This document shows positions 36,986 through 63,613 of a DNA stretch of 64,000 nucleotides, piece by piece. Positions within the stretch are counted from its first letter, which is position 1. Each line of letters opens with the position of its first letter. The notes beneath the pieces are model-generated. The model was given only the letters and a program-made list of their open reading frames with translations, was not told the DNA's origin and made no database searches. The stretch lies in the NCBI RefSeq assembly GCF_011492945.1, contig NZ_CP045119.1:186001-250000 (forward strand), in the 5' to 3' direction. Source of the stretch: Rubrobacter tropicus (lineage in GTDB: Bacteria; Actinomycetota; Rubrobacteria; Rubrobacterales; Rubrobacteraceae). A program made the translations under genes and the position numbers.

Positions 36986-37050
36986 CTAGCCCAAATTATC
37001 TACCGGCGATGGGTTAGGGAAAGATCACGCATCGGTCCGATGTCGGGGGA
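36986..37050 (+). promoter_or_regulatory. CTAG leader element L1 (upstream of oxidase 1)
   Basis: CTAGCCCA (36986-36993) pairs with TGGGTTAG (37010-37017). GGAAAGATCACG follows, then a self-complementary CATCGGTCCGATG (37030-37042). The GCGATCATT end seen in other copies is absent, so this is a diverged copy. Between it and the oxidase start lies a perfect 10-bp hairpin GGGCGGTCCG/CGGACCGCCC (37090-37099 and 37120-37129), just upstream of the ribosome site at 37141-37147. With R4 it fills the 337-bp gap; no gene is seen there. Confidence 0.65.
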
Positions 37051-37153
37051 GGGGGTTCGGGTGTAAAAAAGGGTCAAGAACAGAGATTCGGGCGGTCCGT
37101 CAGGGTTTGGCGACGCCGGCGGACCGCCCGTTACAGAGACAAGGAGGACCCCC

Positions 37154-38797
37154 TTGACTCCTGCCGCGCATTATACCCGCCGGGGAACGAGGTTAACCCG
37201 CAAGGAGGTGCTCAAGCTGGGCCTGCTCGGGGGCGCCGCGCTCCTGCTGCCGCTGGAGCGGGCGGCCCGGACGAAGTCTCTGGCGGATCGTATCCCGACG
37301 AGCCGGCTCCCCCGGCCGTTCACCTCCCCGTTCGCCGTCCCGCCCGTCTTGAAACCCCAAACCGTCGGGAACACCGACTACTACCGCATGACCATGACCA
37401 ACGCCCCCGTGCGGGTGCTGCCGGGGTTCCCGAAGACCGAGATATGGGGCTACAACGGCATCACGCCCGGTCCCACCATAATCCAGGAGAGGGGCAGGGA
37501 GACCGTCGTTCGCCAGATAAACGCCATCCGCAGCCCGGACCACCTGCACACCTCGGTGCACCTGCACGGGAACGCCACAAAGCCCCAGTACGACGGCTAC
37601 GCAAACGACGTCACGAAGCCGGGCTGGGGGAAGGACTACCGCTACCCGAACGGCCAGCCAGCCCGCACGCTGTGGTACCACGACCACGGCGTCCACGTCA
37701 CCTCCGAGAACGCCTACAGGGGCCTGGCGGGCCTCTACATCACCCACGACGAGCACGAGAGGGGACTCGGCCTGCCGAAGGGGTACCACGACCCGGTCGC
37801 CCGCACCGGGTACGACGTGCCGCTCGTGATAAGGGATGCCGTCTTCGCGACGAACGGCTCGCTCATCTTCGACCGCGAAGAGCAGGGGAGCCTGTTCGGG
37901 GACGTGATCCTGGTAAACGGCGTCCCGTGGCCGGTGATGAAGGTCGAGAGGCGCAAGTACCGCTTCCGCGTCTTGAACGCCTCGATCTCCCGCTCGTACA
38001 AGCTCGCCCTGAGCAGCGGTGACCCCATGACGGTGATCGGGAGCGACGGCGGGCTCATGCCGCACCCCGTCCGGACCGGCTCCGTGCGCGTGGGGATGGC
38101 CGAGCGCTACGAGATAGTCATAGACTTCGCCAGGTACAAGGTCGGGACGAGCATCGTCCTGCGCAACGGGGATCTCCCGAACAACCGCGAGGAGAAGAAC
38201 ACGAACGTCGTCATGCGTTTCGACGTGGTCTCGGACGCCACCGACACCTCTGGCAACAGGGTGCCCTGGAATCTCGGCAAGGTCGGGGACGGCGACTACG
38301 ACCCCATGCCGCTCCTCCCGTCCCAGTCCACGCACACCGAGAGGTTCGTCTTCGAGCGCAAGAACGGCAACTGGGTCATAAACGACGGTACCTGGAAGGA
38401 TATCGAGGATTCCGGCAACCAGTTGAACGCCGCGGTGTGCAAGAAGGACGAGATCGAGATCTGGGAGTTCCAGAACAAGAGCGGCGGTTGGTTCCACCCG
38501 ATCCACGTCCACCTCATAGACTTCAAGATCCTCTCCCGCACCGGCGGCAAGTCCCCCGGCGTCCTGCCCTACGAGAGAGGACCGAAGGACACGGCCTACG
38601 TCGGGGAGAACGAGACGGTGCGCGTCCTGGCGAAGTTCGGACCCCACCAGGGCCGCTACATGATGCACTGCCACAACCTGACCCACGAGGACCACGACAT
38701 GATGACCCAGTTCCAGGTCGGAACGGGCGGCGAGCGCTGGGACTCCGCCCCCCCGAGACCCGCCTCCGAGCTACCCCCGCTTCTGCCGGGTCTCTAG
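37154..38797 (+). CDS. Exported multicopper oxidase 1 (bilirubin oxidase/CotA type)
   Basis: A 547-aa three-cupredoxin oxidase. Copper ligands are all visible: HLHG (His136, His138), WYHDHG, HPIHVHL, and HCHNLTHEDHDMM, so both the trinuclear cluster and the type 1 site should be complete. It oxidises phenolic, tetrapyrrole or metal substrates using O2. The N-terminus (TRKEVLKLGLLGGAALLL) is Tat-like, but with Arg-Lys in place of the twin Arg. The TTG start at 37154 is supported by AAGGAGG six bases upstream. It is 50% or so similar by eye to oxidase 2, which follows; both are preceded by a CTAG leader element. Placement after copper genes suggests metallation outside the cytosol or before Tat export. 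Confidence 0.93.
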   Translation: MTPAAHYTRRGTRLTRKEVLKLGLLGGAALLLPLERAARTKSLADRIPTSRLPRPFTSPFAVPPVLKPQTVGNTDYYRMTMTNAPVRVLPGFPKTEIWGYNGITPGPTIIQERGRETVVRQINAIRSPDHLHTSVHLHGNATKPQYDGYANDVTKPGWGKDYRYPNGQPARTLWYHDHGVHVTSENAYRGLAGLYITHDEHERGLGLPKGYHDPVARTGYDVPLVIRDAVFATNGSLIFDREEQGSLFGDVILVNGVPWPVMKVERRKYRFRVLNASISRSYKLALSSGDPMTVIGSDGGLMPHPVRTGSVRVGMAERYEIVIDFARYKVGTSIVLRNGDLPNNREEKNTNVVMRFDVVSDATDTSGNRVPWNLGKVGDGDYDPMPLLPSQSTHTERFVFERKNGNWVINDGTWKDIEDSGNQLNAAVCKKDEIEIWEFQNKSGGWFHPIHVHLIDFKILSRTGGKSPGVLPYERGPKDTAYVGENETVRVLAKFGPHQGRYMMHCHNLTHEDHDMMTQFQVGTGGERWDSAPPRPASELPPLLPGL

Positions 38798-38803
38798 GAC
38801 AAA

Positions 38804-38827
38804 ACGGGGGCGTCTGTAGCCCCCCGT
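38804..38827 (+). terminator. GC hairpin after oxidase 1
   Basis: ACGGGGG (38804-38810) pairs with CCCCCGT (38821-38827) around a 10-nt loop, 7 bp after the stop. There is no clear T-run, so the terminator role is likely but not certain. Confidence 0.5.
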
Positions 38828-38964
38828 CGTGCATCGATCCTCGTGGCCTCCAGCGTCGAATCGGGCGAAACGGTTTCGAGAGCGCTTCTGCGAGGGAAGC
38901 GTTCCGAAGCCTTGATCCGCGGGTCACAAATACCCCAAACGGCGTAGACGCCTTGTACCGGATT

Positions 38965-39026
38965 TGCGCTAGGCAAAGATCGCTGCTTTAGACGATGTCT
39001 AAGAGCTTCCCGCGGGCGATCATTCT
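38965..39026 (+). promoter_or_regulatory. CTAG leader element L2 (upstream of oxidase 2)
   Basis: GCGCTAGGCAAAGATCGC (38966-38983), then hairpin TTAGAC-GAT-GTCTAA (38988-39002), then GGGCGATCATTCTGG (39014-39028). GATCGC (38978-38983) pairs with GCGATC (39016-39021). The upstream CTAGCCCA arm is poorly kept. A GGCG-TTTT-CGCC mini-hairpin and GATAAT (a possible -10, about 39070) lie before the oxidase 2 start. The rest of the 298-bp gap, 38828-38964, shows nothing else I can name. Confidence 0.75.
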
Positions 39027-39095
39027 GGTCATGAGGAGCGACTTTTTCAGAAGAGGCGTTTTCGCCAGTGATAATACAGAGACCGGGGGGGCGCG

Positions 39096-41033
39096 ATGCA
39101 AGCAGTAAGGACCAAGATCAGCCGCAAGGACATGCTGAAGATGGGCCTGCTCGGCAGCGCCGCCGTGGCCCTCCCGCTGGAGCGCGCGGCCCGGACGCAG
39201 TTGGCGGCGGCCCGCCTGCCCGAGAACCAGTTGCCCCGGCCTTTTCAGACCGAATTTACGGTACCGCCGGTCGCGAAGCCCGCCTACCAGGACGACACGA
39301 CCGACTATTACGAGATGGCCATGCGGTCGGCGTTCCTCCAGATCCTCCCCGCCCCCCTCCCCAAGACCGAGGTCTGGGGCTACGAGGGCATCACGCCCGG
39401 TCCCACGATCATGGCCAGGCGCGGCCGCAACGTCGTCGTCAGGCACAAGAACTGGATCCAGAGCCCGGGGCACGAGCACACCTCGGTCCACCTGCACGGC
39501 AACGCCACAAAGCCCCAGTACGACGGCTACGCCAACGACACCACCAACCCCGGCGAGTACAAGGACTACCACTACCCAAACGGCCAGGACGCGAGGACCC
39601 TCTGGTACCACGACCACGGCGTCCACGTTACCGCCTTCAACGCGTACATGGGTTGCGCCGCGTTCTACATAAGCCACGACGAGCACGAGATGAGCCTCCC
39701 CATTCCCAAGGGAAAGTACGACGTCCCGCTCGTGCTGCGCGACGCCATCTTCGGCACCGACGGGCAGATGATCTTCGACGACCAGGGCCACTCGAGCCTG
39801 TTCGGGGACGTGATCCTGGCAAACGGCGCCCCCTGGCCGGTGATGAAGGTCGAGAGGCGCAAGTACCGCTTCCGTATCCTCAACGCCTCGATCTCCCGCG
39901 GCTTCAACCTGGCCCTGAGCGATCGCGAGCCGATGACGATCATCGGCCACGACGGCGGGCTCGCCCCCGAGCCGGTCGAGGTCACTAGCTACCGCCACGG
40001 GATGGCCGAGCGCTACGAGGTCGTCATAGACTTCGCCAGGTACAACGTCGGAGAGAGCGTCGAGCTCAGGAACCTCGGGCTGCCCAACACGCAGGACTTC
40101 GCGACGACGAACCGGGTGATGCGCTTCGACGTGGTCTCCGAGGCGACCGACCTCTCCAACAACGAGATACCGGGCGTCCTCGGCAACAGCGAGCACCCCT
40201 ACAGCCCGATGAAGCTCCAGGAGTCGCAGTCCGTCAGGACCCGCCGGTTCGAGTTCGGGCGCGAGATCGTCAACGGCAGCGAGATGTGGACCGTCGCCAC
40301 GGACGGCGGGCCGGGCCGGATCTGGGACCCCAACCGCGTGGACGCGAACCCGGGGCTTGACGACGTGGAGATCTGGGAGTTCACCAACAACGGCGGCGGC
40401 TGGTTCCACCCGATCCACGTCCACCTCATAGACTTCAAGATCCTCGACCGCGACGGGGCGCCCCCGCATCCGTGGGAGCGCGGCCCGAAGGACACGGTCT
40501 ACGTCGGCGAGGGCGAGACGGTGCGCATGATCATGAAGTTCGGCCCGCACAAGGGCCGGTACATGATCCACTGCCACAACCTCGTCCACGAGGACCACGA
40601 CATGATGGCCCAGTTCGAGGTCGGTTCGGGCGGGGACGACCCGATCGCCTCGGCCCCCGCCAGGCCGACTAGCGAGGCGCCGCCGCTGTACACGGTGAAA
40701 GAGGACCCGCCGGACAAGCCGGACCCGCCCCTGCCCCCGAACGTGGCGCCGAAGGTCTCCATCCTGCGCCCCGCGCAGGGCTCCGTGACCCGCTCCCGGA
40801 GGCCCACCGTCGTCGCCCGCGTCACCGACGACAAGCAGCTGAGCAAGAGCAAGATCCAGCTCTTCCTGGACGGACGGCGCGTCGGCGAGTACGACTACCG
40901 CAACGACACCGGCGTCCTGACCTACGTGTGCCCGAAGCTCAAGCTCGGCTGGCACCGGGTGCAGATCCTCGCCACCGATGACCGGGGACTCAAGACGGCC
41001 CGGACCCAGAGCTTCCGCGTGGTGCTCCGGTAG
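39096..41033 (+). CDS. Exported multicopper oxidase 2 with C-terminal Ig-like domain
   Basis: A 645-aa paralogue of oxidase 1 with the same copper motifs: VHLHGNA, WYHDHGVHV, HPIHVHL and HCHNLVHEDHDMM. The N-terminus (SRKDMLKMGLLGSAAVALPL) is again Tat-like with Arg-Lys. Unlike oxidase 1 it continues past the third cupredoxin through a Pro-rich linker (about 530-548) into a beta-sandwich of about 90 residues (PKVSILRPAQGSVTRS onward) that ends in the sequence SFRVVLR, the same kind of ending as the surface proteins further downstream. The extra domain may fix the enzyme to the envelope. It starts the transcription unit that continues, after 29 bp, into the membrane protein and signal peptidase genes. 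Confidence 0.93.
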   Translation: MQAVRTKISRKDMLKMGLLGSAAVALPLERAARTQLAAARLPENQLPRPFQTEFTVPPVAKPAYQDDTTDYYEMAMRSAFLQILPAPLPKTEVWGYEGITPGPTIMARRGRNVVVRHKNWIQSPGHEHTSVHLHGNATKPQYDGYANDTTNPGEYKDYHYPNGQDARTLWYHDHGVHVTAFNAYMGCAAFYISHDEHEMSLPIPKGKYDVPLVLRDAIFGTDGQMIFDDQGHSSLFGDVILANGAPWPVMKVERRKYRFRILNASISRGFNLALSDREPMTIIGHDGGLAPEPVEVTSYRHGMAERYEVVIDFARYNVGESVELRNLGLPNTQDFATTNRVMRFDVVSEATDLSNNEIPGVLGNSEHPYSPMKLQESQSVRTRRFEFGREIVNGSEMWTVATDGGPGRIWDPNRVDANPGLDDVEIWEFTNNGGGWFHPIHVHLIDFKILDRDGAPPHPWERGPKDTVYVGEGETVRMIMKFGPHKGRYMIHCHNLVHEDHDMMAQFEVGSGGDDPIASAPARPTSEAPPLYTVKEDPPDKPDPPLPPNVAPKVSILRPAQGSVTRSRRPTVVARVTDDKQLSKSKIQLFLDGRRVGEYDYRNDTGVLTYVCPKLKLGWHRVQILATDDRGLKTARTQSFRVVLR

Positions 41034-42217: not shown

Positions 42218-42222
42218 TAATC

Positions 42223-42293
42223 CTAGTCCAGGTGGGCTAGGCAAAGATCGCCCATACATGTGATGGTTTGAGGCGTCTCGTGGGCGATCATTT
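42223..42293 (+). promoter_or_regulatory. CTAG leader element L3 (upstream of oxidase 3)
   Basis: The best-preserved copy. CTAGTCCA (42223-42230) pairs with TGGGCTAG (42233-42240). GATCGCCCA (42246-42254) pairs perfectly with TGGGCGATC (42281-42289), enclosing a CCAT...ATGG hairpin. TGGGC at 42233-42237 can alternatively pair with GCCCA at 42250-42254. The ribosome site AGAGGAGAG and ATG 42330 follow within 40 bp. Confidence 0.82.
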
Positions 42294-42329
42294 CGGCACT
42301 GAAGGTTTTAGATCCAGAGGAGAGCCCAG

Positions 42330-45300
42330 ATGGCAGCCCACCAGATCTCGACGAAGCTCACAGATTTCTCTTCCGGCATCGTCCGGGAGTTCGCGCTTTT
42401 CGCGGCCTCGGGGCTCTCGCTTCTGGCGGCGGCGATCCACCTGTGGGCCGTCCCGGAGCACCTCTTTGAGTGGTGGGGCTACGGCGCGTTTTTCGTGGCG
42501 CTCTCCCTGCTCCAGGGCCTCTTCGCGGTGGCGCTTCTGCGCCGTCCGTCCCGCGGGCTCCTCCTCTCCGGCGCCTTCGCGAACCTCGGCGTCGTCGCTT
42601 TCTACGTTACGACCCGCACCGCCGGCATCCCGTTCATTGGTCCCCACGCCGGCGAGGTCCACGCCGCCGGCGCCCTCGACCTGACCGCCACCGTTGCCGA
42701 GCTGGCGCTGGCCGCCGCGCTCGTAGCGCTCGCGGGCGAGGGGCGCAGGGCCCGCATCTACGTCGCCCTCGGCGCCGTCCAGGCGCTCGGCACCGGGCTC
42801 GTCCTGCACGCGCTCCACTCGGGTATACACGCCGAGCAGGGACTCGGCTTCGTCACGCACTGGGTGCAGAACTCCATCCTCGCGCTTCCCCTCTCCGTTC
42901 TCGCCCTCCTCGTCGCCGGCCCGCTCGCGCGGGCCGGCGCCGGGTTCTTTTTCGGCGAAGACGCGTTCGCGGCCAGGATCTCCTGGGCGCTCGCGGCGGC
43001 CGGGGCTTACGCCGCGGCCGGTATCCCGGCCAACGCCCTCGCGGCGCACCACGCTTCGGCCGGCGCGTTCCTCGCGCAGTCCGGCCGCGACGCGGGCGTC
43101 GTGCTCGGGGTCGGGTTCCTGATCCTGCTCGCCGTGGCCCAGCTTCGCGGGACGCCCTGGGAGGTCCCCCGGTCCATAGACTTCTGGCGCCCCCGCGCCG
43201 CGACCGCCCTGGTCGGGCTCGCGGCGGGGATCATGGTCGTCGTCGGGCCCGCGGCCTTCGCCGAGATGTTCGCCCAGCCGGTCCAGGCGCAGGCCGCGCC
43301 TGGCGCCTGCTCTTCTTCCTCCTACGATCGCTCCTACGACGTGGCCGCTGCCAACGTGGACATCCCCTACAACCGCTTCGCCCAGACGAAGGAAGTCGCC
43401 GGCGAGACCGTCGGCCTGAACATGGACCCCAACGGCCAGGCCTTCGTGCTGCAGGGAGATCAGGCAGCCGTCGAGAACTGGTTCAGGCCGCTCGGCGCCA
43501 CGCCTTCTGAAGATCCGGCCGGGGCCGACAACAGGCGCCTCAGGCCGCGCCCGCTCGTGATCCGGGCCAACGCCGGCGAGTGCGTGAAGGTCACGCTCAC
43601 CAACGAGCTCGAAGCGACCGGCGGCGACGGCCTGCCGGACAACCCCAGGGTCGGCATCAAGGTCTACGGCCCCGCCTACGACGCCCAGACCTCCGACGGC
43701 TCCGCGGTCGGCTACAACGCCGACACCACCGTCGGCATGGGCGAGACCATCTCCTACTACTGGAAGGCCCCCTCCGAAGAGGGCACCTTCCTCTTCCGCG
43801 ACCAGGGAGCCCTGGCCGGCTCCGAGGCAAACTCCGGCTCCACCGGCCACGGCCTTCACGGCGCCTTCGTCGTCGAGCCGGCCGGCTCGACCTGGAGGGA
43901 CCCCGAGACGGGCCAGCCCCTCTACGCCGGCGGCGCGAACGGAAAGACCCACAACCGCCTCACCAAGCAGAGCGGCGATTCGTACATAGACGCCGACATC
44001 GTCACGCCCGGCGGGTCGTTCCGCGAGACGCTCCAGATCAGCCAGGACGAGCTTCCCGGCGGCAACGGCTTCGCCTTCAACTACGGCGCCGAGCCTGCGT
44101 GGAACAGGATAGCCACCAACCCCGCCGGCGCGAACCCGGCGGCCGAGCAGAGCGCCCCCGACGCCATCGGCGAGGAGACCTCGCTCTCGTCCTGGACCTA
44201 CGGCGACCCCGCCCTCATAAAGCTCGCCAGCGGTCCCGGCCCCTGGCTCCCCGGCGCCGACAGGCAGAACAAAGAGGATTGCGGCCTCGAGAACTCCTGC
44301 TACGTCTCCAACGTCACGCACGCCTACAAGGGGGATGCGACCAAGATCCGGTTCGCCCACGCGGGCGTCAAGGAGACCCACGTCTTCCACATGCACGCCC
44401 ACCAGTGGCGCATAGAGCCGAACGACCCGGGAAGCCAGATCATAGACTCCCAGACCTTCGGCCCCGGCGAGGCGTTCACCGCGAGCCTCATAGGCGGCGC
44501 CGGCTCGACCCCCAAGACGGCCGGCGACTCGATCTTCCACTGCCACCTCTACCCGCACTTCGCCGACGGCTTCTGGGCCCTCTTCCGGGTCCACGACGTC
44601 TACGAGGACGGCACGGGCTCGCTCCCCGACGGCACGAAGGTCCGCGAGCTGAAGGCGCTGCCGGGCAAGGCGGCCCCGGCCGGCCCCACGGCCGAGAAGC
44701 CGGGCTACCCGCGCTTCATCCCCGGCAAGTACGGCTGGAGGGCCCCGCAGCCCCCCGGCTCCATCAGCGAGTCGAACGGCCAGCAGGACGTTGCCTCCAC
44801 CGTCCAGCGCGAGGACCTCGACCCGGCCACCCGCGTGGTCGCCGGCAGGCCTCTGAAGGCCGACGAGCTCGGCACCCGGGCCGCCGCCGGAGACGCCCTC
44901 TCCCAGCAGCTTTTGGATAAGCTCCAGCTCGAGCAGCAGAACGTGCTGCCGAACGCCAAGCCCGGCGCGCCCTTCGCCGAGCCCTGCCCCTCCGGCGCCA
45001 GGGAGGTCACCTACAACGTCAGCGCGATCCAGACCGACGTCGTCTACAACGAGCGCGGCGACCACGACACGCAAGGGCGCATCATGGTCCCGACCAAGGA
45101 CGTGGAGGCGATCCTCAGCGGTGCCAAGAAGCCCGAGCCGCTCTTTATCCGGGTGAACGCCGGCGATTGCATAAACTTCAACCTGACAAACTACCTGCCC
45201 AACTGGTACGGCGGCGACGCCTTCGTCGAGCTGGCCCAGACGAACATGGTCGGCGGGCACATTCACCTGGTCAAGTTCGACGTGCTCGCCTCCGACGGCT

Positions 45301-48702: not shown

Positions 48703-48767
48703 CTAGTAATGGCTAGTACAAAAAGGCCAATAAAAGTTAATCCTTTTGGGCGATACCGGTATCCCTC
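48703..48767 (+). promoter_or_regulatory. Possible divergent leader element upstream of RTX gene
   Basis: CTAGTAATGGCTAG, then TACAAAAAGGCC, then CCTTTTGGGCGATACC (48750-48765) follow the order of the CTAG element (CTAG..TGGCTAG, A-rich, GCC, GGGCGAT), but the words are only partly kept. CTAGTACAAAA also occurs at about 27568, upstream of the response regulator gene. A -10-like TATAAC (48781-48786) lies downstream. Confidence 0.35.
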
Positions 48768-48815
48768 TAAGTGTCCAATATATAACCGTAAACCAGGGAA
48801 AGGGAGGCGACGACG

Positions 48816-49241
48816 ATGCTGCGCAAGATAGGCCTTATGTTACTGATGGGAGTGATGCTTCTAGCGCTCGGGGTTGGGGCGGCGCTCGCGGGCGACGGTT
48901 CGACCATCACCGGCACGAACCAGGACGACAGGTTGATCGGCACGAACGCGGACAACAGGATAAACGCGTTCGACGGCAAGGACTTCGTTATGGGGATGGG
49001 CGGCAACGACACCCTCAACGGCGGGAACAACTCGGACAGGCTCAACGGCAACTGGGGCAACGACACCCTGATCGGCGGCCAGAACTCCGACGTGCTGCTT
49101 GGCCGGGTCGGCAACGACACCCTCAACGCCGCGGATAACCAGCAGGACACCCTCTTCTGCGGCCTCGGCACGGACCGCGCGATCGCCGACGCCATCGACA
49201 TCGTCGCGTCGGACTGCGAGAGCATCAGGCGCGTGAACTAG
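48816..49241 (+). CDS. Secreted RTX-repeat calcium-binding protein (short)
   Basis: A 141-aa exported protein with a classic signal peptide (to about residue 25, GVGAALA). The mature part is built of five or so nonapeptide-type repeats such as GTNQDDRL, GGNDTLNGG and GNDTLIGG, the hemolysin/RTX beta-roll that binds Ca2+. It has one Cys pair near the C-terminus (CGLGTD, SDCES), probably a disulfide, since both lie outside the membrane. No adhesin or enzyme domain is attached. GGGAGG stands at proper distance from the ATG. A second protein of the same design is encoded at 51566-52087 on the other strand. Confidence 0.85.
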   Translation: MLRKIGLMLLMGVMLLALGVGAALAGDGSTITGTNQDDRLIGTNADNRINAFDGKDFVMGMGGNDTLNGGNNSDRLNGNWGNDTLIGGQNSDVLLGRVGNDTLNAADNQQDTLFCGLGTDRAIADAIDIVASDCESIRRVN

Positions 49242-49305: not shown

Positions 49306-49332
49306 CCGCGTTGGGAGGCCGGTTTGCGGGGA

Positions 49333-49402
49333 TAGCCCAGTTGGGCTAAAGAAAGATCGCCCATCTGCGCGATGGCGCCCGGGACCGCTGAAGCGATCAT
49401 TG
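49333..49402 (+). promoter_or_regulatory. CTAG leader element L4 (upstream of beta-propeller protein)
   Basis: TAGCCCA (49333-49339) and TGGGCTA (49342-49348) form a perfect palindrome. AAAGATCGC (49352-49360) follows, then CCATC/GATGG around TGCGC, and GCGATCATT (49393-49401). GATCGC (49355-49360) pairs with GCGATC (49393-49398). The element overlaps an upstream extension of the reading frame, which supports the later GTG start at 49438. Confidence 0.8.
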
Positions 49403-49437
49403 TCTCAGGCTGGTTCTTACCGAGAGAGGCTGCGCAA

Positions 49438-52087: not shown

Positions 52088-52270
52088 GTCTACACCCCGT
52101 TTGGTCGTCGCCCCGGCCCCGACGTGCCCGGACTCTTCTCCTCCTTGGCTGCACACGCAGCAGATGCTACTAGTCTAGCATCGTGGCCTCCCCGTCCGGG
52201 GGTTTCCGGGGCCGGTTTTTGTCGTTTTCGCCCGGTGCTCGCCGTTCCGGGAGCCTGTCGTCGTCGGGAC

Positions 52271-52342
52271 CTAGCCCAGATGGACTAGAAAAAAATCCTG
52301 AGCTTTCGCGATGGCGGCGTGGGCCGTATCGCCGATCATCTT
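52271..52342 (+). promoter_or_regulatory. CTAG leader element L5 (upstream of two-domain surface protein)
   Basis: CTAGCCCA (52271-52278) faces TGGACTAG (52281-52288). The GGA here is matched by TCC in AAAAAATCC, where other copies have GGG...CCC, a change that keeps the pairing. CGATGGCG and CGATCATC (52333-52340) complete the element. The 368-bp gap 52157-52524 also holds a leader of about 180 bases to the TTG start, in which I see no gene. Confidence 0.75.
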
Positions 52343-52524
52343 CGGGTGCGAAGAAGACAAGAGGGGGACCAATCGTGACTCTATCAAGTAGAAGCACCGA
52401 TGGCGCGCCACCGGGGACCGGAGCATTCGGCCGACGACGCCCACACTTCGGAAGACGACGTACGGATCCTGCAAGCGGGGCCAGCGAGAGACGTAACCAT
52501 ATCAACGTACGGAGAGGAAGGACC

Positions 52525-55500: not shown

Positions 55501-56421
55501 GACGAGGCCGGCAACTCCTCCGAAGTCGGCGCGCAAGCCTACGACATCGTGGACAACCAGGCGCCGAACGTCCCGTCCGTGGACCTCGCGGCGGAGAGCG
55601 ACACGGGCAAGTCCAACGAGGACAACGTCACCAACGCCGCCAGCCTCACCTTCACCGGCGACGCCGAGGCTGGCTCCGCGGTGAAGATCCTGGTCAACGG
55701 TACCGAGAGGGGAAGCGCCGTCGCGGGCGAAGACAACAGGTACAGCGTCACCATCGCCGGCCTCGCCCCGGGCGCGGATCTTCCCGTGACGGCCACGGCG
55801 ACCGACCAATCGGGCAACACCAGCGCCGCCACCGATCCGGCCCTGAGCCTCACGATCGACCGGACGGCCCCCAGGGTCACGGCCCAGGCCGCCGCCGGCA
55901 CCTACCCCAGGGCCCACACGGTCACGCTGACGCCAAACGAGGCGGCAAGCGTCCACTACACGCTCAACGGCGCGGTCGATCCGGCCCCGGGCGCGGCCGG
56001 CACCACGGAGGGCAACTCCGTCCGCATCGCCAACGCCCGCGACACTTTGAGGTTCCTCGGTGTCGATACGGCCGGCAACGTCTCCCAGACGTTCGTGGCG
56101 GAGTACAGGATCCGGAACTTCCTGCCCACTATCTCCAACATGAGCCCGACCACGGCCATAAGGGACGCGACGCCTCGGGTGGCGGCGACCGTCAACGACA
56201 GCGACTCCGACCTGACCGAGGCCGACGTCACGCTCTCGATCAACGGTCGGGCCATACCGCGGTCGGCCTTCGTCTACAACGCCGACACCAACCGCCTGAC
56301 CTACCAGGTCCCGGCGGGCCAGCCGCTGGACCCCGGCCGCTACAACGTCAGGGTGACCGCCACCGACGTCGACGGGGGCTCCGCCGCGAGAAGCTGGAGC
56401 TTCACCATCCGTAACCGCTAG
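52525..56421 (+). CDS. Large secreted protein: duplicated FPFW domain, chitobiase-type and Ig-like repeats
   Basis: About 1298 aa. The TTG at 52525 is chosen because GGAGAGGAAGGA lies just upstream and a signal peptide follows (LAAVAALLLLSAVLGG, cleavage near VRA-QE). Two copies of a domain of about 190 residues (about 55-260 and 550-740) share GFPFWY, the Cys-containing CLNP, FPGEAFWWTGE, VTHPYGxDT and TEDIGC. I do not recognise it. Between and after them are at least four beta-sandwich repeats of chitobiase C-terminal type (VYYTTDGSDP, KIFYTTNGTDP), then bacterial Ig-like and cadherin-like domains. It is an extracellular, probably envelope-bound protein; no sorting motif such as LPxTG is visible. 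It is preceded by L5 and followed by a strong terminator. Confidence 0.8.
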   Translation: MIGNYKQALVGGKENGRGTAVRITLAAVAALLLLSAVLGGLASPVRAQEQSRQGLAESGPINPDSGFPFWYKDHSGAKLELCLNPKPATVPDGAPNAGAPNPGGGRCLTPFEMPDENAPMVFPDNFPGEAFWWTGEAHIEDPNDPNATNALLVMAAESAFANENPKEGDQMSFGRVRVRIDNGVPGATYRVTHPYGIDTVVAEDKDGDPATANDGRVFVTEDIGCFPTAITTCNFDKMLNGRVGPFLKWDTFGNGTDGDEATPADENLMALDADGNPDPNRPDAYFGDPDTPHKVVGSPKGTNYFKIEQIKDGAGRPLAEPALVGETDLFAVTGKVAELRLAAEAVGAEGRADTVFNDKDQKIKLVPSEPGSEVYYTTDGSDPADGANPNRKIYDPNGAGVALESDPTAAAGVDTRVRAIAVKDGKTSAELDRTYTVDLVAPNVVFSGLAAGKHEEPGDLTIAATQKARVYYTTDGSDPTDEANPNRRSFVYDPAPGAQNEGNVLNIARTQTVKAAALDLNHNEATGQDEEGAWSRIKSRKFVVANLKVGPVNPHTGFPFWYEDRNGVRLDQCLNPVAAPEAGGGYCATPMEMPADWQPGDGVRFPDRFPGEAFWWTGESSMDTSERGSADLIMALEAAFLNEEPNPNDRMVFGRIRIRVDDLIIGETYKVTHPYGVDTYVAEDNGKGSGEINVTEDIGCMLPSEAEPCDFNEARFSRVGPFLTLADKTKEPTDAPDGGRYLADPVTDQDVVQGSPIMAHADPNDPDSPMVPANFFRVEGPGIRAVQDEESAVDFNRGTAEKPYIQSDFFSVTGRYSEFQAAASAVGGFYNRPLDVTLGASEFDARIFYTLDGSEPVGADGQPTENAREFVAGAPIQIPANGETTLKYAATSATHPRPTKVYTEVYKMDTEAPVVVAEDTPEAGSVVEGARVFENVNPAVRLSVANEPGKVKIFYTTNGTDPSDPTNVDRALYDAATPVVIRKDTTLKFWAVDEAGNSSEVGAQAYDIVDNQAPNVPSVDLAAESDTGKSNEDNVTNAASLTFTGDAEAGSAVKILVNGTERGSAVAGEDNRYSVTIAGLAPGADLPVTATATDQSGNTSAATDPALSLTIDRTAPRVTAQAAAGTYPRAHTVTLTPNEAASVHYTLNGAVDPAPGAAGTTEGNSVRIANARDTLRFLGVDTAGNVSQTFVAEYRIRNFLPTISNMSPTTAIRDATPRVAATVNDSDSDLTEADVTLSINGRAIPRSAFVYNADTNRLTYQVPAGQPLDPGRYNVRVTATDVDGGSAARSWSFTIRNR

Positions 56422-57186: not shown

Positions 57187-57282
57187 TTTAACCCAAATGA
57201 GCTAGAGGTACACGCCTATTTTGGGCTAGTCAAAGATGGCCTATCTTCGCGAGGGAGAACCGTGTGGGATGCCGCATCATTC
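57187..57282 (+). promoter_or_regulatory. CTAG leader element L6 (upstream of duplicated-domain surface protein)
   Basis: AACCCA...TGAGCTAG (57190-57205) is followed by a second TTGGGCTAG (57221-57229), then TCAAAGATGGCC and GCATCATT (57274-57281). GATG (57235-57238) can pair with CATC near the end. It looks like a copy with a doubled first arm. Downstream, in the leader, CGCGGACCC (57377-57385) and GGGTCCGCG (57389-57397) form a perfect 9-bp hairpin followed by TTTCGG, about 45 bp before the start. The 332-bp gap holds no other gene I trust. Confidence 0.7.
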
Positions 57283-57376
57283 TCTTGTGGGAAATAGCAC
57301 ATCAGAGGAGAAGAGGATGACCGGTATGGGTTACGAAGAGCAGGTCACGCACCGGCGACCATCGAACTATCTCTTT

Positions 57377-57400
57377 CGCGGACCCGAGGGGTCCGCGTTT
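57377..57400 (+). terminator. Hairpin plus TTT in the leader of the 57443 gene
   Basis: CGCGGACCC-GAG-GGGTCCGCG followed by TTT looks like an intrinsic terminator sitting inside the leader, between element L6 and the start codon, that is, where a riboswitch expression platform would be. Read-through would be needed to express the gene. Confidence 0.5.
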
Positions 57401-57442
57401 CGGCGCGCGAGCGCGGGCGTTTCAACCAGCAAGGGAGAAGGC

Positions 57443-60400
57443 ATGACGTACGTACGGGAGCACGATTCGAGCAGGGGTATCAGCGTAGTCAGGAAGGCGT
57501 TCCTCGCCTGCTTCGCCGCGCTGCTCGCCGTTCTGGCGCTCGCGCCGCAGGCCAACGCGCAGGCCGTAATAAACGAGCCGCCGCAGTTGCCCCACGAGGT
57601 CGTGGTATTTCCCCAGCGAGATTTCGTGGTGGCAGATGGCTACCAGGACGGACAGCGGCTGGACTTCGAGGTTATCCGCAAAGATACCGGCGGCAACGAC
57701 GTGACGGTAGGCACCGCCACCGGCGTAGTGGCCGGCGGCCTTCTAGAGGTCAACCACCCGGGCGGCGTCTGCTGGACGGATCAGACCCCGGATATTCTCC
57801 CCGGCGACAGGGTGGTCGTCACCGATCCTTCGGGCAACGGCGACGCCGTGACCACGGCGAACGTGACCGCCGAGGCCGCTTTCATAAACGATACGACGGG
57901 CAACATCGAGGTCCACGGCACGGCCAGGGAGGCCGACGGCTCCAGGATCCCGATCGAGCGCCTGGAACAGCGCATCATCAACCCCGACCTGGTAGATACT
58001 TCGGTCGGCCGGCGAGACATCCGGGCGACGAGCGACGGCGCCGAGCTCGGCACCATCTCCTACGACGGCGAGACCGGCAACGCCTGGACGGCCACCTACT
58101 CCGACCTCGGCGACCAGGCCGAGCAGGTCGCCGTCGCGGGCCAGACCCGCATCATGAGCTGGCAGGCGACCAACGCCGCGGGCGACCGGCTCGGGATCAC
58201 GATCTTCGAGGAAGACGAGATCGGCGGGCCCGGCCTCGGCGGCTGCGGCGCCGGCGCGAGCTACGGCGTCGCCGACTTCGGCCGCGACGCCATAAACGCT
58301 TCGAACGTCGGCCAGGCCCTCGACGTCACCGGCTCCGCCTTCGACGCGAGCGCCGTAACGGCCACCCTCTCCGACGGCACCAGGACCATAAACGCCAACA
58401 TAACCCAGCAGCCCACGCCCGCCACCGGGCACCAGAGCTGGAAGGGAACCTTCTCCGCCGCCGACGTCGCGACACTCGCCGACGGCAACCTCACCGCTTC
58501 TAGCACCTACACCATCCAGGACATAGACGAGGCGACCCAGCTTCCGGTAGAGCGCCAGATCAAGGGCGCGGACAAGCTGATCCTCAAGGACACCGTGGCC
58601 CCCGACGCGGGCGGCCTCACGGCAACGCCCGGCGCCGGCACGTTCACGAGCCCGCAGAACGTGAAGCTCCAGAAGCCCGCTGGCGAGGACCGGCTCACGG
58701 AGGTTTACTACACCACCAACGGCAGCCAGCCCACGCTCGCCAGCCGTGTCTTCGGCGAGGACATCATCGTCACCGACGACCAGACCATCCGGGCCCGCAT
58801 GGTCGACGCCGCGGGCAACCAGAGCGGCGTCAACTCCTTCGCCTACGACATCAACGTCGGTCCCGACTCGACCGTGGACGCCCCGGCCAACGTCACGCCC
58901 ATAGACGTCCCCGACGCGCCCAACACCGGGACCATCAACAACCCGCCGCAGCTCCCGCACGACGTCACGGTCTTCCCCTCGCGGGACTTCGTGGTGGCCG
59001 ACTTCTACGAGCCCTTCACCGACCTGTTCTTCAAGGTAGTCCGTAACGGGCACGTCGTCGGCGCCGCCAAGGGCACCACCGACGCGGCCGGCTTCCTGGA
59101 GGTCAACCACCCGGGCGGCGTCTGCTGGACCGGCCAGACCCCCGACATCAAGGCTGGCGACGAGGTGATCGTCACCGACGCCCAGGGCAACGGCGACGCC
59201 GTTAGCACCTCGGACGTCTTCGCGACCGGTGCCGAGGAGGTCGGCAGCACCGTCGTCATCCACGGCACCGCCGCCGACGCCAACGGCAACCCGTTCCCCA
59301 TAGAGCGCCTCGAGCAGCGCATCATCAACCCCGACTTCAGGGACGCCCCCGGCAGCACCATCGGCCGGCGAGACATCCGGGCGACGAGCGACGGCGCCGA
59401 GCTCGGCGACATCTCCTACGACCCGGTCGATCCGCAGGACAACCCCGACGGCACCAGGTGGACCGCCGTCTACACGGGCCTCAACGCGGTCGAGCGCGAC
59501 CTCGCGGTCGCGGGCCAGACCAGGATCATGGGCTGGCAGGCGACCAACGCCGCGGGCGACCGGCTCGGGATCACGATCTTCGAGGTCGGCGAGCTCGGCG
59601 GCCCCGGCTTCGGCGGCTGCCCCGCCCCCACGGACTTCGCCGTTACCGGCGCGAACCGGGACGCGGTCAACGCCACCAACGTCTCCCAGGGCCTCCAGAT
59701 CGACGGCCTCTCAAACAACGCGAGCGCCGTCAGGGTAACGCTGACCGACGGGTCCGGAAACACGGCCTCCGCCGACGCCGCCATCACCCCGTCCCCCGGC
59801 CTCACGAGCCCGAACGCCCAGGTCTTCAAGGCCGCCTTCACGGCCGGGCAGCTTGGCGGCCTCGACGAGGGCACCCTCACGGCCTCCGCGGCCTACACGG
59901 TCCCGGGCGAGCCTGACGCGAACGGCAACCCGACCACCACCACCTTCGACGGCGTCGTGAACTTCGAGGTCCTCAAGGACACCGTGGCACCCGACGCGAA
60001 CGGCATCACGGCCACGCCGAACGCCAACACGGGCACGAACCGTTACCCGACCTGGCAGGCGATCGCGCTCGAACACGGCGACGCCGAGGGAACGGGCATC
60101 CGCTTCACCCTCAACGGCAACGACCCGACCCCGTACAGCAGGCTCGCCGAGTCGCAAATCGTGCTCGACGCCAGGCCCGAGCCCTACGCCCTGAAGGCCA
60201 TAGCGGTCGACAAGGCCGGCAACAAGAGCGCCGTCAGGACCTTCGAGTTCAACATCGTGGACGGCATCGCGCCGCGCCAGCCGGGCGCCCTCGATCTGGC
60301 CGCCGCGAGCGACACGGGCCTCTCCAACACCGACAACGTGACGAACGACGCCACGCCGACCTTCGGCGGCACGGCCGAGGCCCGCTCGACCGTCAGGCTC

Positions 60401-61171
60401 TTCGAGCTCACGGGCACGGACACCCTGAACCAGGTGGGCCAGGCGACCGCCGGCACCAACGGAAGCTTCAGCGTCACCGCCAATACGCTCTCCGACGGGG
60501 ACCACGCCCTCCTCGTGACGGCCACCGACGCCTCCGGCAACGAGAGTGCTAGGTCAAACGTCCTCAACCTCACCGTCGACACGGCGGCGCCGAACACGAC
60601 CATTACCTCCGGTCCTACGGGCACCGTCAACGTCACCACGGCCAGCTTCGGCCTCTCCTCCAGCGAGCCGCAGGGCGCGAGGTTCCAGTGCTCCCTCGAC
60701 GGGGTCGCCTTCGCCGCCTGCACCTCGCCCAGGAACTACACCGGGCTCGCCCCCAACCGCTCGCACACCTTCAGGGCGCAGACTACGGACCTCGCCGGCA
60801 ACCTCGAAGCCGACCCGGCCTCCCGCACCTGGACCATCGACACCGTCAGGCCCACGGTCACGAGGACGACGCCGGCCGCCGGCGCCCGGAACGTCGCGCC
60901 CGCCAGCAACGTCACGGCCACCTTCTCCGAGGCGATGACGGCCGACACCGTGAACGGGACCACCGTCAGGCTCGTCAGGAACGGCACCAGGGTCGGCGCC
61001 ACCGTCAACTACAGCCCGGCAACCAGGGTCGTCACCCTCAACCCGAACGCCAACCTCGTCCGCGGCGCCACCTACACCGCGACGATCGTGGGCGGGGCGA
61101 ACGGGGTGAAGGACACGGCCGGCAACGCGATGGCCACGGGCATGAGCTGGTCTTTCAGGATCGCCCCGTAG
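57443..61171 (+). CDS. Large secreted protein with duplicated unknown domain and Ig/chitobiase repeats
   Basis: About 1242 aa. ATG 57443 (GGGAGAAGG upstream) starts a clear signal peptide (LACFAALLAVLALAPQANA). An in-frame ATG at 57317 also has a good ribosome site, but would bury the signal and translate through a hairpin. The N-terminal domain of about 230 residues occurs twice (about 46-270 and 500-735): QLPHEVVVFPQRDFVVAD, LEVNHPGGVCW, TPDI..GD, ERLEQRIINPD and ATNAAGDRLGITIF. I do not know this domain; it returns in the next two genes. The rest contains chitobiase-type repeats (VYYTTNGSQP), Ig-like domains and a final Big_5-like domain (TPAAGARNVAPASNVTATFSEAM in parts). There is no LPxTG motif. 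Preceded by L6; terminator downstream. Confidence 0.8.
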   Translation: MTYVREHDSSRGISVVRKAFLACFAALLAVLALAPQANAQAVINEPPQLPHEVVVFPQRDFVVADGYQDGQRLDFEVIRKDTGGNDVTVGTATGVVAGGLLEVNHPGGVCWTDQTPDILPGDRVVVTDPSGNGDAVTTANVTAEAAFINDTTGNIEVHGTAREADGSRIPIERLEQRIINPDLVDTSVGRRDIRATSDGAELGTISYDGETGNAWTATYSDLGDQAEQVAVAGQTRIMSWQATNAAGDRLGITIFEEDEIGGPGLGGCGAGASYGVADFGRDAINASNVGQALDVTGSAFDASAVTATLSDGTRTINANITQQPTPATGHQSWKGTFSAADVATLADGNLTASSTYTIQDIDEATQLPVERQIKGADKLILKDTVAPDAGGLTATPGAGTFTSPQNVKLQKPAGEDRLTEVYYTTNGSQPTLASRVFGEDIIVTDDQTIRARMVDAAGNQSGVNSFAYDINVGPDSTVDAPANVTPIDVPDAPNTGTINNPPQLPHDVTVFPSRDFVVADFYEPFTDLFFKVVRNGHVVGAAKGTTDAAGFLEVNHPGGVCWTGQTPDIKAGDEVIVTDAQGNGDAVSTSDVFATGAEEVGSTVVIHGTAADANGNPFPIERLEQRIINPDFRDAPGSTIGRRDIRATSDGAELGDISYDPVDPQDNPDGTRWTAVYTGLNAVERDLAVAGQTRIMGWQATNAAGDRLGITIFEVGELGGPGFGGCPAPTDFAVTGANRDAVNATNVSQGLQIDGLSNNASAVRVTLTDGSGNTASADAAITPSPGLTSPNAQVFKAAFTAGQLGGLDEGTLTASAAYTVPGEPDANGNPTTTTFDGVVNFEVLKDTVAPDANGITATPNANTGTNRYPTWQAIALEHGDAEGTGIRFTLNGNDPTPYSRLAESQIVLDARPEPYALKAIAVDKAGNKSAVRTFEFNIVDGIAPRQPGALDLAAASDTGLSNTDNVTNDATPTFGGTAEARSTVRLFELTGTDTLNQVGQATAGTNGSFSVTANTLSDGDHALLVTATDASGNESARSNVLNLTVDTAAPNTTITSGPTGTVNVTTASFGLSSSEPQGARFQCSLDGVAFAACTSPRNYTGLAPNRSHTFRAQTTDLAGNLEADPASRTWTIDTVRPTVTRTTPAAGARNVAPASNVTATFSEAMTADTVNGTTVRLVRNGTRVGATVNYSPATRVVTLNPNANLVRGATYTATIVGGANGVKDTAGNAMATGMSWSFRIAP
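57577..58260 (+). repeat. Intragenic domain repeat, copy A
   Basis: First coding copy of the duplicated domain. Several stretches are nearly identical in DNA to copy B, for example at 58006-58051 (GGCCGGCGAGACATCC and onward) and 58136-58210 (GCATCATGAGCTGGCAGG and onward). Other stretches have diverged. Confidence 0.75.
58939..59640 (+). repeat. Intragenic domain repeat, copy B
   Basis: Second coding copy. The near-identical patches are at about 59362-59407 and 59509-59585. The patchy identity suggests an old duplication with later gene conversion, or strong codon-level constraint. Confidence 0.75.
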
Positions 61172-61196
61172 TCATCCGATAGGGCCTTCGAGCCGC

Positions 61197-61265: not shown

Positions 61266-61345
61266 TGCCTCATACGGCAAATGGGCTAGGGAAAGTTCGC
61301 CCATGCAAGCGATGGCGAATCCTGCGGGGTAAGCGACCATATTCC
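61266..61345 (+). promoter_or_regulatory. CTAG leader element L7 (upstream of 649-aa surface protein)
   Basis: GCCTCAT (61267-61273) can pair with ATGGGC (61281-61286) with one bulge. TGGGCTAG (61282-61289), GGAAAGTTCGCCC, GCCCATGC...GCGATGGC and GCGACCAT (61333-61340) follow. GTTCGC faces GCGACC with one mismatch. The rest of the 334-bp gap is a leader of about 150 bases with no gene seen. Confidence 0.78.
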
Positions 61346-61505: not shown

Positions 61506-63455
61506 ATGGGTACACAGTACGGGAACATATTCGAGAGGGGGAGACGGCTCAAGAAGCTGGTGGCGATCTCCGCCACCGCCCTCCTCGTGAGCCTGCCGCT
61601 CGCGGCACCGGCTCAGGCTTTGCCGACCGGCCCGGGGATACAGCCCGGGCACAACATCACCGTCTTCCACAACCTGGACTTCATAGCCGTCTTCGGCTAC
61701 CAGGTGGGTGAGGAGCTCACCGTGCAAGTCTTCCGCGGGGACCACATGATCGGCACCGCCACCGGGCCGGCGGTCGAGGCCGACGAGGGTCTGCCCCAGA
61801 ACGGGGCCCTCGAAGTAAACCACGGGCCTGAAGGAGACCCTCAGCCGGGCGACTGCTGGGAGAACTTCACGCCCGACATCCTGCCCGGCGACCGCGTGGT
61901 GGTGACGAGCGCGGCCGGGACCGTGACCGAGGAGGTCACCGTAGACGGTATCTCCATGAAGGCGCCGAAGGACGACACTTCGACCGCCGACCCGAGCGAC
62001 GTTATCGTCGAGGGCCGTGCCTCCTTCGCCGACGGGACGCCCATCCCCGTCGACCGGCTCGACTCCGGTGAGCTGCGGCAGGCGAGCCCAAGGTTCCGCG
62101 CGGCGCCAAGCGCCGTCGAGAGGATCCCGGGTACGACCGATGGCTGGCGTGCGATCTACCGGGCCCCGTACGATATCGTCCAGATGCCCGCGCCCCTCAC
62201 GGCCCAGCAGCAGAAGGACGCCATCTTGAACGGCGATCACGCGATGGGCTACGGTCACGTGGCGCCCCTGCCGGCCGAGACCCAGCTCGTCGACGGCGTC
62301 GGAGGCGGCGGCCCCGCCCTCGGGTGCGAGGCGCTCGCGCCGAAGCAGTCGAACGCCGTCGCCACCAGCGACGACGAGAACGTGAACATCGCCAGCGACA
62401 CCCTCAACCTCAGCGGCACCGCGATGGAGGACGTCTCCGGCGTCGACATTACCCTGGGCGACGGCGACGCGGCAACCACCGATCCCACCGTCAGCGCCAC
62501 CAACCTCGCCCCCGGCCCCGGCGGAGAGCAGACGTGGTCCGCGCAGTTCTCGCGGGCGGATCTCGACGCCCTGAGCGACGGCACCCTGACCGCCACGGGC
62601 GCCTACGCCCTCTCCGGCGGCGGGACGACCACGGGCGCGACCCTGGAACTCCAAAAAGATACGGTCGCCCCCGGCCCGGCGACGTCCGACGTGCCTCCCG
62701 GCATCTACAATACCGACAAATCCGTCACGCTCAGCGCGGAGGCGGGCGCGAAAGTCCGCTACACGACGGACGGGACGGACCCCTCCGCCACCACCGGCGC
62801 CCTCTACGACGGCCAGCAGATAAACGTGACGAGCAGCCAGACCATAAAGGCGATAGTCGTGGACGCCGCGGGCAACCCCTCCAGCGTCGCCTCCTTCGGC
62901 TACACTATTGACCGCGTCGCCCCGAGCCTGACCTCGAACTTCGTCAGCGGCTCCTACGACGCGGCGCAGATGGTTCCCTTCACCTCCGACGACCCGGGCG
63001 CGGAGATCCGCTACACCACCGACGGCTCCACGCCCAACAGGACCAGCAAACTGTACACGGGCCCGGTCCGGATAGCGAAAACCCAGACGGTCAAGGCGGT
63101 AGCCTACGACGCCGCGGGCAACGCCTCCGGGGTCCAGTCGAGGACCGTCACGATCCGCAAGGCCACGACGACCAACCTCAACGTCCCGACGGCCGACATG
63201 AAGCTCGGCAACACGCGGGCCATAGCGGGCGGGGTGAGCCCCAACCAGGCCGGCAGCTTCGTCAGGGTGACGATAGACCGCCCGGGCACGCTCTCGACCA
63301 TAACGAGGAGCGCAACGCTCAACGAGTTCTCGCGGTTCAGCACTACCTACAAGCCGACCGCGCCGGGCACGTACAGGATAACGGCGAGCTTCGTCAAGGA
63401 CGCCGACGCCCTGGCCTCCACGAGCGTGATGAAGAGCTTCAGGGTGGTCCGTTAG
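61506..63455 (+). CDS. Secreted protein with unknown N-terminal domain and chitobiase-type repeats
   Basis: A 649-aa exported protein. ATG 61506 follows GGGAGTAGGGGAG; the signal peptide ends near APAQA. The N-terminal domain (about 40-285) is a diverged relative of the duplicated domain of the previous gene: HNITVFHNLDFIAVFGY, IGTATGPAV, LEVNHGPEGD, DCWENFTPDILPGDRVVV. An Ig-like region and two chitobiase-type repeats (VRYTTDGTDP, IRYTTDGSTP) follow. The last 95 or so residues match the C-terminal module of oxidase 3 and the propeller protein (MKLGNTRAIAGGV..., ending KSFRVVR). It is preceded by L7 and closed by a strong terminator. Confidence 0.82.
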   Translation: MGTQYGNIFERGRRLKKLVAISATALLVSLPLAAPAQALPTGPGIQPGHNITVFHNLDFIAVFGYQVGEELTVQVFRGDHMIGTATGPAVEADEGLPQNGALEVNHGPEGDPQPGDCWENFTPDILPGDRVVVTSAAGTVTEEVTVDGISMKAPKDDTSTADPSDVIVEGRASFADGTPIPVDRLDSGELRQASPRFRAAPSAVERIPGTTDGWRAIYRAPYDIVQMPAPLTAQQQKDAILNGDHAMGYGHVAPLPAETQLVDGVGGGGPALGCEALAPKQSNAVATSDDENVNIASDTLNLSGTAMEDVSGVDITLGDGDAATTDPTVSATNLAPGPGGEQTWSAQFSRADLDALSDGTLTATGAYALSGGGTTTGATLELQKDTVAPGPATSDVPPGIYNTDKSVTLSAEAGAKVRYTTDGTDPSATTGALYDGQQINVTSSQTIKAIVVDAAGNPSSVASFGYTIDRVAPSLTSNFVSGSYDAAQMVPFTSDDPGAEIRYTTDGSTPNRTSKLYTGPVRIAKTQTVKAVAYDAAGNASGVQSRTVTIRKATTTNLNVPTADMKLGNTRAIAGGVSPNQAGSFVRVTIDRPGTLSTITRSATLNEFSRFSTTYKPTAPGTYRITASFVKDADALASTSVMKSFRVVR

Positions 63456-63490
63456 GCAAGGAAAACAAACGACGCGAGTAGCTGTCCTTC

Positions 63491-63524
63491 GAGGCCCCGC
63501 CCGGTGTGGGCGGGGCCTCTCTTG
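63491..63524 (+). terminator. Terminator of 649-aa surface protein
   Basis: GAGGCCCCGCCC (63491-63502) and GGGCGGGGCCTC (63508-63519) form a perfect 12-bp stem around GGTGT, followed by TCTT. Confidence 0.8.
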
Positions 63525-63544
63525 CGTGGGCCGGTCCCATCGGT

Positions 63545-63613
63545 ACGACGAATGGGCTAGAGAAAGTTCGCCTTTGCGGGGGATGGCGGGGTGGCCGTGA
63601 GGCGGGATGATTA
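63545..63613 (+). promoter_or_regulatory. CTAG leader element L8 (upstream of partial surface protein)
   Basis: TGGGCTAG (63553-63560) is followed by AGAAAGTTCGCC. TTCGCCT (63567-63573) pairs with AGGCGGG (63600-63606) using two T-G pairs where L3 has perfect pairs, so pairing is kept although the sequence differs. GGATGGCGG lies between. CCCAT just upstream (63537-63541 region) can pair with ATGGG. Confidence 0.75.

Follow-up and report, generated by a model that had tools for sequence, protein, structure and literature searches.

What is the conserved element that precedes one exported-protein gene after another in a stretch of the Rubrobacter tropicus genome, and which protein, if any, reads it? 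The stretch, here called the window, comprises 64,000 nucleotides of contig NZ_CP045119.1 (G000:C1:186001-250000, G000 being the 4.58 Mb source genome), and window positions are used throughout. An initial annotation had described the element at eight places as a structured leader RNA, possibly a riboswitch. Our analysis suggests that the element is almost certainly a promoter and not an RNA; a composite protein operator, the alternative named in the initial annotation itself, fits the data. We propose a model, to which we give a probability of roughly two in three, according to which the element of about 70 bp is a DNA promoter-operator at which dimers of the response regulator RR1 activate a surface regulon, RR1 being phosphorylated by the adjoining histidine kinase HK1.

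The element and its distribution

The repeat recurs well above expectation. The pattern GGGCTAGNNAAAGWTCGCC, allowing up to 3 mismatches, has 7 matches in the window compared with a mean of 0.26 and a maximum of 2 in shuffled sequences, and a sequence-only model recovers all eight places of the initial annotation with E-values from 5e-18 to 1e-6, confirming a conserved element there. The copy at 37009 is the sole independent match, because the other seven are among the 44 rows of the model. The list of eight needs amending in that the 36986/37010 copy, at 25 bits and without a good -10 box, is degenerate and that two further copies recovered by the model had been overlooked, one starting at 28872 (E 4e-7; 28870-28943) and a weak one at 48713 (E 0.0016; 48712-48785).

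Run over the whole source genome, the model scores 22 matches at E<=0.01, and several of these lie just beyond the window end; the short pattern at 3 mismatches gives 41 compared with 20 in a backward control, i.e. half of them are at chance level. With the source genome counted, 26 of 39 Rubrobacteraceae genomes match the model at E<=0.01, a threshold at which the tallies per genome take in weak matches, possibly due to chance. Stricter filters were applied to a sample of the phylum, in which 14 of 246 genomes match at E<=1e-4, all 14 being Rubrobacteraceae. Of 24 genomes outside the family, 3 contain the short pattern, each once and with 3 mismatches, a rarity comparable to that in the backward control. 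Across the loci fetched, a weight matrix of 74 columns identifies 75 elements above 35 bits and none in the reversed-sequence control. This distribution is that of a putative family-wide regulon in Rubrobacteraceae, which is new in instance as far as the literature searched shows: no description of the element was found among the matches listed for Rubrobacter regulation, promoters, riboswitches and multicopper oxidases.

Two dyads and a -10 box at constant distance

For the anatomy of the element we stacked 54 copies from the source genome and its relatives, picked by eye on columns 1-23 only, with TGGGCTAG forming columns 1-8; 14 rows of the multi-genome scan and most 3-mismatch rows of the source-genome scan had been dropped as poor before the -10 box was recognised. 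The stack needs no gaps, and its logo reads CTAGCCCA-ww-TGGGCTAG-nn-AAAG-ATCGCCCA-TnTnn-GCGATGg, followed by a stretch of near-zero information and by NATNAT at columns 54-59. The upstream half CTAGyCCA of the initial annotation adjoins TGGGCTAG in three of the eight window copies (42223, 49333 and 52271), lies farther upstream in 36986 and 57187 and is unclear in three; over the 54 copies it is well conserved. What had been described as a terminal "GCGATCATT" is the variable NATNAT at constant distance.

The NATNAT block is the predicted -10 box. The motif.AT.AT begins at column 54 in 32 of the 54 copies and in 0-1 at every other column from 40 to 75, the looser.A...T begins there in 45 compared with 0-12 elsewhere, and, as for the nearest hexamer resembling a -10 box, 42 copies have it beginning at column 54, 6 at 55 and 1 at 57, with none found in 5. 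This positional test is unbiased, as the copies were selected on columns 1-23 only; -10 counts over the 75 elements are partly selected, because the weight matrix includes the -10 columns. The spacer varies in sequence and is near-constant in length, pointing to a constraint imposed by RNA polymerase, as an RNA loop would be expected to drift. MAFFT inserted one gap column into a set of 44 copies (A2). This set omits the 37010 copy, L044, L049, L051, L062, L064, L073, L076:17321, L077:18236 and L080, mostly copies with a poor upstream half or an unclear -10 box, so that the tests performed on it, i.e. MAFFT, RNA folding and pairing, and dyad similarity, rest on the better copies.

Upstream of the -10 box lie two related 18-bp dyads, CTAGCCCA-NN-TGGGCTAG (I) and ATCGCCCA-NN-TNNGCGAT (II), spaced 24 bp apart, the centre of dyad II preceding the first base of the -10 box by 30.5 columns. 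The copy at 42222 has site I at 42223-42240, site II at 42247-42264 and the -10 box GATCAT at 42286-42291. The profiles of the two dyads are similar in register only (0.52, compared with no more than 0.14 when shifted by 1-6 bp; p 0.012 in symmetric column shuffles), the half-site common to both being roughly [CA]T[AC]GCCCA. In the 54-copy logo the inverted heptamers TAGCCCA-NN-TGGGCTA are separated by 2 bp and conform to a 7-2-7 rule. If +1 is set at the ATG of a leaderless gene described below, dyad I would be centred at about -66.5 and dyad II at about -42.5, where the latter would abut the -35 region of a sigma70-type -10 box.

A probable operator within the operon of its putative regulator

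The overlooked copy at 28870-28943 sits between two paralogous genes for what we call pseudo-receivers, downstream of HK1 and RR1, all on the + strand. HK1 (21958-27570) is, by Pfam, a histidine kinase with receiver, multiple PAS and HisKA_3 domains and adjoins RR1 (27668-28360), by Pfam a response regulator with receiver and GerE domains (LuxR/NarL-type), which synteny and co-occurrence mark as the candidate activator. They are followed by pseudo-receiver A (28554-28871, start codon not fixed) and pseudo-receiver B (28947-29288), which is predicted to adopt a receiver fold but lacks the phospho-acceptor Asp. Of 13 genomes, 11 have RR1 followed by two pseudo-receivers, and all 11 have the element in the interval separating these; in G030 there is a single pseudo-receiver with the element upstream of it, and G012 deviates from this order. 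HK1-like sequence ahead of RR1 is clear (at least 95 bits) in 9 of the 13 and weak in G014 and G026, and it stands apart in G012, the upstream region of G013 not being included in this count.

The start codons of these genes bear on the position of the -10 box. The element lies upstream of the close pseudo-receiver gene in 12 of the 13 family genomes possessing one, the exception being G012, and in all 12 copies an ATG follows 6-7 nt past the -10 box (assessed partly by eye, in G014 and G017 after shifting the -10 box by one base). In the window copy the -10 box is TAATAT and the ATG of pseudo-receiver B follows 7 nt later. We saw no Shine-Dalgarno sequence in those 12 copies, and pseudo-receiver B is predicted to be leaderless. 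As the pseudo-receiver mRNA is predicted to start at this ATG, the element would end upstream of the transcript and could not lie within it. The paralogue copy at L134 has the same spacing from -10 box to ATG. Among the other targets, 32 of 62 would have leaders of 20-40 nt, counted from the inferred start site, which is an ordinary length.

RR1 also co-occurs with the element. At least one element match is present in 14 of 14 genomes with an RR1 above 350 bits compared with 12 of 25 others (Fisher p 0.0009), and in 13 of 13 genomes with a close pseudo-receiver compared with 13 of 26 others (p 0.0014); at a threshold of 5 elements the numbers are 10/14 compared with 4/25 for RR1 and 11/13 compared with 3/26 for the pseudo-receiver, all of these with cut-offs chosen after the tables were seen and with statistics that ignore shared ancestry, both of which count against the association. 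The element number tracks the RR1 score (Spearman 0.75). Within one genus, G023 has 8 elements, RR1 and pseudo-receivers compared with 0 elements and no RR1 match in G011; within another, G030 has 17 elements compared with 0-1 in each of nine congeners, whose RR1-like matches reach at most 320 bits. Together with the gene order this suggests that RR1 is probably the activator of the element promoters.

Several observations weigh against this assignment. In G012, no element was found between the RR1-like genes and the pseudo-receiver. At E<=0.01, one match or more is present even so in 13 of the 26 genomes that lack a close pseudo-receiver; three of these, G005 (which has RR1), G020 and G031, reach 5 matches each. 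In the paralogue copies L033 and L052 the ATG is about 24 nt farther on. At 24 bp, the dyads are not separated by an integral number of helical turns. The half-site TAGCYCA differs from TACYYMT, the heptamer of E. coli NarL, and RR1 scores 110 bits with the NarL model compared with a cut-off of 250, so that the element is not part of a NarL regulon proper.

The strongest competing explanation keeps the promoter-operator and assigns it to another activator, or to two different proteins on dyads I and II, i.e. a composite operator. The halves of the dyads differ (CTAGCCCA vs ATCGCCCA), some genomes have elements but no close RR1, and the source genome encodes several LuxR-type regulators, with 7 listed matches to one of them, RR2 (33940-34590). 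The score of RR2, the only other LuxR-type regulator covered by the comparison, is weakly correlated with the element number (Spearman 0.35, p 0.03). On the other side stand the RR1 gene order and its stronger co-occurrence, RR2 giving Fisher p 1.0 and 0.29 in the same test, and the likeness of dyads I and II in register. We consider another activator distinctly less probable than RR1, yet worth keeping in view. RR2 itself was rejected despite its weak correlation, because orthologues of at least 70% identity are found only in G000, G030 and G033 (3 of 39 genomes) and G033 is without the element. RR2 lies beside YcnI-type, CopC and CopD genes. The region 33008-36816, with a histidine kinase, RR2 and genes for DUF1775 (YcnI-type), CopC and CopD, is a cluster related to copper that includes a two-component system of its own, and the weight-matrix scan found no element upstream of it, within 32-33 kb.

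Other explanations of the conserved blocks

The conserved blocks could also be extended -35 and -10 signals of an alternative sigma factor, either flagellar/WhiG or ECF. Two features lean this way. The sequence AAAG...GCGATG is loosely like TAAA / GCCGATAA, the flagellar-type consensus given for WhiG of Rubrobacter radiotolerans (PMC8325347), and the -10 box has its usual first T in only 9 of 75 elements, which also counts against our model. A T at the first position of TAAA (column 10) is found in 1 of 54 copies, on which ground a flagellar sigma promoter was rejected; the conserved length of about 70 bp, including an 18-bp dyad, exceeds a sigma site; and the start codons fit a -10 box at columns 54-59, not GCGATGG. 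We regard a sigma factor promoter as improbable.

A structured leader RNA or riboswitch within the transcripts, as proposed in the initial annotation, is the least probable explanation and is hardly tenable given the variable spacer without insertions or deletions, the -10 box at constant distance, the subset of start codons 6-7 nt past it and the RNA tests. RNAalifold finds 0 consensus pairs on the 44 copies. The long helix suggested earlier (GATCGCC with GGCGATC) has 65.6% of cells paired compared with 66.4% in shuffles; pairing kept while bases change, as had been claimed, thus holds in that such pairings occur in single copies and fails in that the long one has no excess covariation. With regard to Rfam, the window has 0 matches at the gathering score; at E<=5 the region 36900-63900 has three weak matches, none from a riboswitch family.

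Some of the RNA results lean the opposite way. As hairpins, the two dyads have 84.3% of cells paired compared with 82.9% in shuffles and 14 double-change cells compared with 7.6, a number reached by 3 of 500 shuffles, the covariation score being matched by 8 of 500. This excess gives weak support to an RNA, and a palindromic operator could also produce it. Among ten single copies folded, z ranges from 0.1 to -3.6, five having -2.06 to -3.60 and five being no better than -0.81; three of the former five (42222, L031:3275 and L070) share a fold that combines the CTAG hairpin with the long helix, a combination not seen in the remaining seven copies. The top pairs in mutual information (columns -12 to 63) lie within the -10 box, reflecting one-base shifts, and between adjacent columns; columns 21 and 50, a pair of the long helix, are among the top 25 (z 4.7). 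Our impression is that in some copies GGGCGATC, which overlaps the -10 box, looks like one more half-site; this would account for the pairing noted earlier. Riboswitch and Rfam membership were both rejected.

Target genes

Among the 75 elements above 35 bits, 13 lie upstream of pseudo-receivers and 62 upstream of other open reading frames (ORFs). A strong N-terminal hydrophobic segment is present in 52 of the 62, and 3 more have a TAT-like N-terminus, with export judged by the hydrophobicity rule alone and ORFs picked by length, at least one of which (L075:3457) is in the wrong frame. These numbers agree with the earlier view of a regulon of mostly exported-protein genes. The earlier statement that cytosolic genes have no clear copy in front of them is contradicted by the copy at 28870 and likewise by all 13 elements of this group, which precede pseudo-receiver genes without a signal sequence. 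A metallo-hydrolase-like protein (by eye) is a further exception. Elements at L130:3330, L135:491 and L074:12200 lie upstream of a small zinc-ribbon-like protein (CPxCxxxxL...CxxC), which by eye has no hydrophobic segment.

Target classes were assigned by Pfam and NCBIfam for proteins of the window and of G000 and otherwise by motif or by eye. On this basis, 8 of the 62 ORFs have an N-terminal motif in common with the MnxG-like oxidase at 42330, 4 resemble the 39096 oxidase in their TAT-like N-terminus and 5 are Met-rich DUF4352-like proteins (narrow motif); chitobiase-C/Ig repeat and RTX-like proteins recur as well. The protein of 42330-48605 is a multicopper oxidase of 2091 aa with an N-terminal hydrophobic part, and ORFs with the same motif carry the element in several family genomes; it matches the MnxG model NF041487 with 409 bits in 8 stretches, below the cut-off of 3100 bits. 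A Met-rich, small membrane-anchored or exported protein recurs downstream of the element at L031:3369-3980, L035:1666-2304, L057 and L074:15580. Its motif EHMAPM...GMxMSSMGMDMAPEG is weakly DUF4352-like, and the protein is possibly copper-binding.

Within the window, where all copies are on the + strand, the degenerate copy at 36999-37072 lies upstream of the multicopper oxidase gene 37154-38797, the copy at 38954-39027 upstream of the multicopper oxidase gene 39096-41033 and the copy at 42222-42295 upstream of the MnxG-like gene. The weak copy at 48712-48785 precedes an ORF with GNDT-type repeats (48816-49241; by eye), and the copy at 49331-49404 precedes a gene whose product has a hydrophobic N-terminus and no Pfam match (49438-51339). 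Genes for repeat proteins follow the remaining copies: a chitobiase-C/Fn3-associated/Big repeat protein (52375-56421) downstream of 52270-52343, a chitobiase-C/Big repeat protein (open frame 57236-61171) downstream of 57211-57284, a repeat protein (61506-63455) downstream of 61271-61344 and a repeat protein extending beyond the window end downstream of 63542-63615. As the frame 57236-61171 opens inside its element, the start of this gene must come after the element.

Pseudo-receivers

The pseudo-receivers A and B are paralogous proteins of about 113 aa. An AlphaFold model of a pseudo-receiver (pLDDT 92.8) can be superimposed on receiver domains, the best Z being 10.0 (101 of 113 residues, rmsd 3.5), which places the modelled protein in the receiver fold. 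Foldseek alone is weak (best E 5e-3), as is a profile comparison with RR1 (probability 10, E 0.003). Taking the register from the Asp of RR1, the phospho-acceptor column is never Asp: 13 of 14 rows have Ser, and the remaining row has Asn. Pfam has no match for the pseudo-receiver paralogue at L033 and NCBIfam none for pseudo-receiver B. The family is rich in distant paralogues, with 12 matches in the source genome and 17 in G030. Directly past pseudo-receiver B, 29368-32895 encodes a second multi-PAS/GAF HisKA_3 kinase, perhaps on the same leaderless transcript.

A model for the regulon

Our model starts from two 18-bp dyads centred at about -66.5 and -42.5, the lower of which would replace the -35 box. 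The NATNAT -10 box follows at constant spacing, and transcription would begin about 7 nt later, downstream of the entire element. In response to a signal, HK1 would phosphorylate RR1, and two RR1 dimers would bind the dyads and recruit RNA polymerase, activating rather than repressing. That a response regulator may act in place of a -35 box is proposed by analogy. What the sequences themselves show is the layout with its spacing, the absence of a consensus RNA fold, the conserved gene order and the co-occurrence. The dispersed regulon of exported oxidases and surface proteins would be switched on together with the gene for pseudo-receiver B in the regulator's own operon, for which we infer a feedback role.

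A farther-reaching version is a tentative suggestion, more doubtful than the model itself. Taken jointly, it holds that HK1-RR1 is a master circuit specific to Rubrobacteraceae, firing a surface-oxidation regulon of MnxG-like and TAT multicopper oxidases and of Met-rich and adhesin-like proteins through tandem 7-2-7 operators, that the operator lies between two paralogous phosphorylation-dead receiver genes in the regulator operon, and that a leaderless pseudo-receiver mRNA feeds back on RR1/HK1.

With the proposed promoter, what had been taken for a riboswitch can be read as a regulon, one for which a candidate regulator can be named, in an actinobacterial family that has been little studied. 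Giant MnxG-like multicopper oxidases would be tied to the same signal as TAT oxidases and Met-rich proteins, making it testable what is oxidised at the surface of Rubrobacteraceae and when. The conserved pair of receivers without phospho-acceptor flanking an operator is an unusual layout.

Comparison with known systems

The pseudo-receiver resembles stand-alone receivers of the CheY/Spo0F type in a fold match over about 100 of 113 residues. Unlike these, it has Ser or Asn for the phospho-acceptor Asp after strand 3, and pseudo-receiver B of the window has NE for ED after strand 1. The candidate regulator, a GerE response regulator with a HisKA_3 kinase adjoining, resembles NarL/NarX, in which a GerE response regulator is likewise paired with a HisKA_3 kinase. 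An activator-dependent promoter is ordinary in kind.

With the WhiG promoters of Rubrobacter radiotolerans, a species for which genome-wide transcription start data are available, the element shares the genus name and a tie to surface structure, type IV pili in that case (PMC8325347), but it does not fit their consensus TAAA / GCCGATAA. A close parallel is the E. coli ogt promoter. According to PMC7419079, NarL dimers bind 7-2-7 inverted repeats, and ogt has tandem NarL sites at -44.5 and -77.5, being active with a site at -67.5 too. The dyads of the element differ in lying 24 bp apart (-42.5 and -66.5) where these ogt sites are 33 bp apart, in the half-site TAGCYCA, in the AAAG conserved between the sites and in a -10 box usually without the first T. 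Both promoters have two inverted repeats with 2-bp centres in tandem, and in both the downstream site abuts the -35 region.

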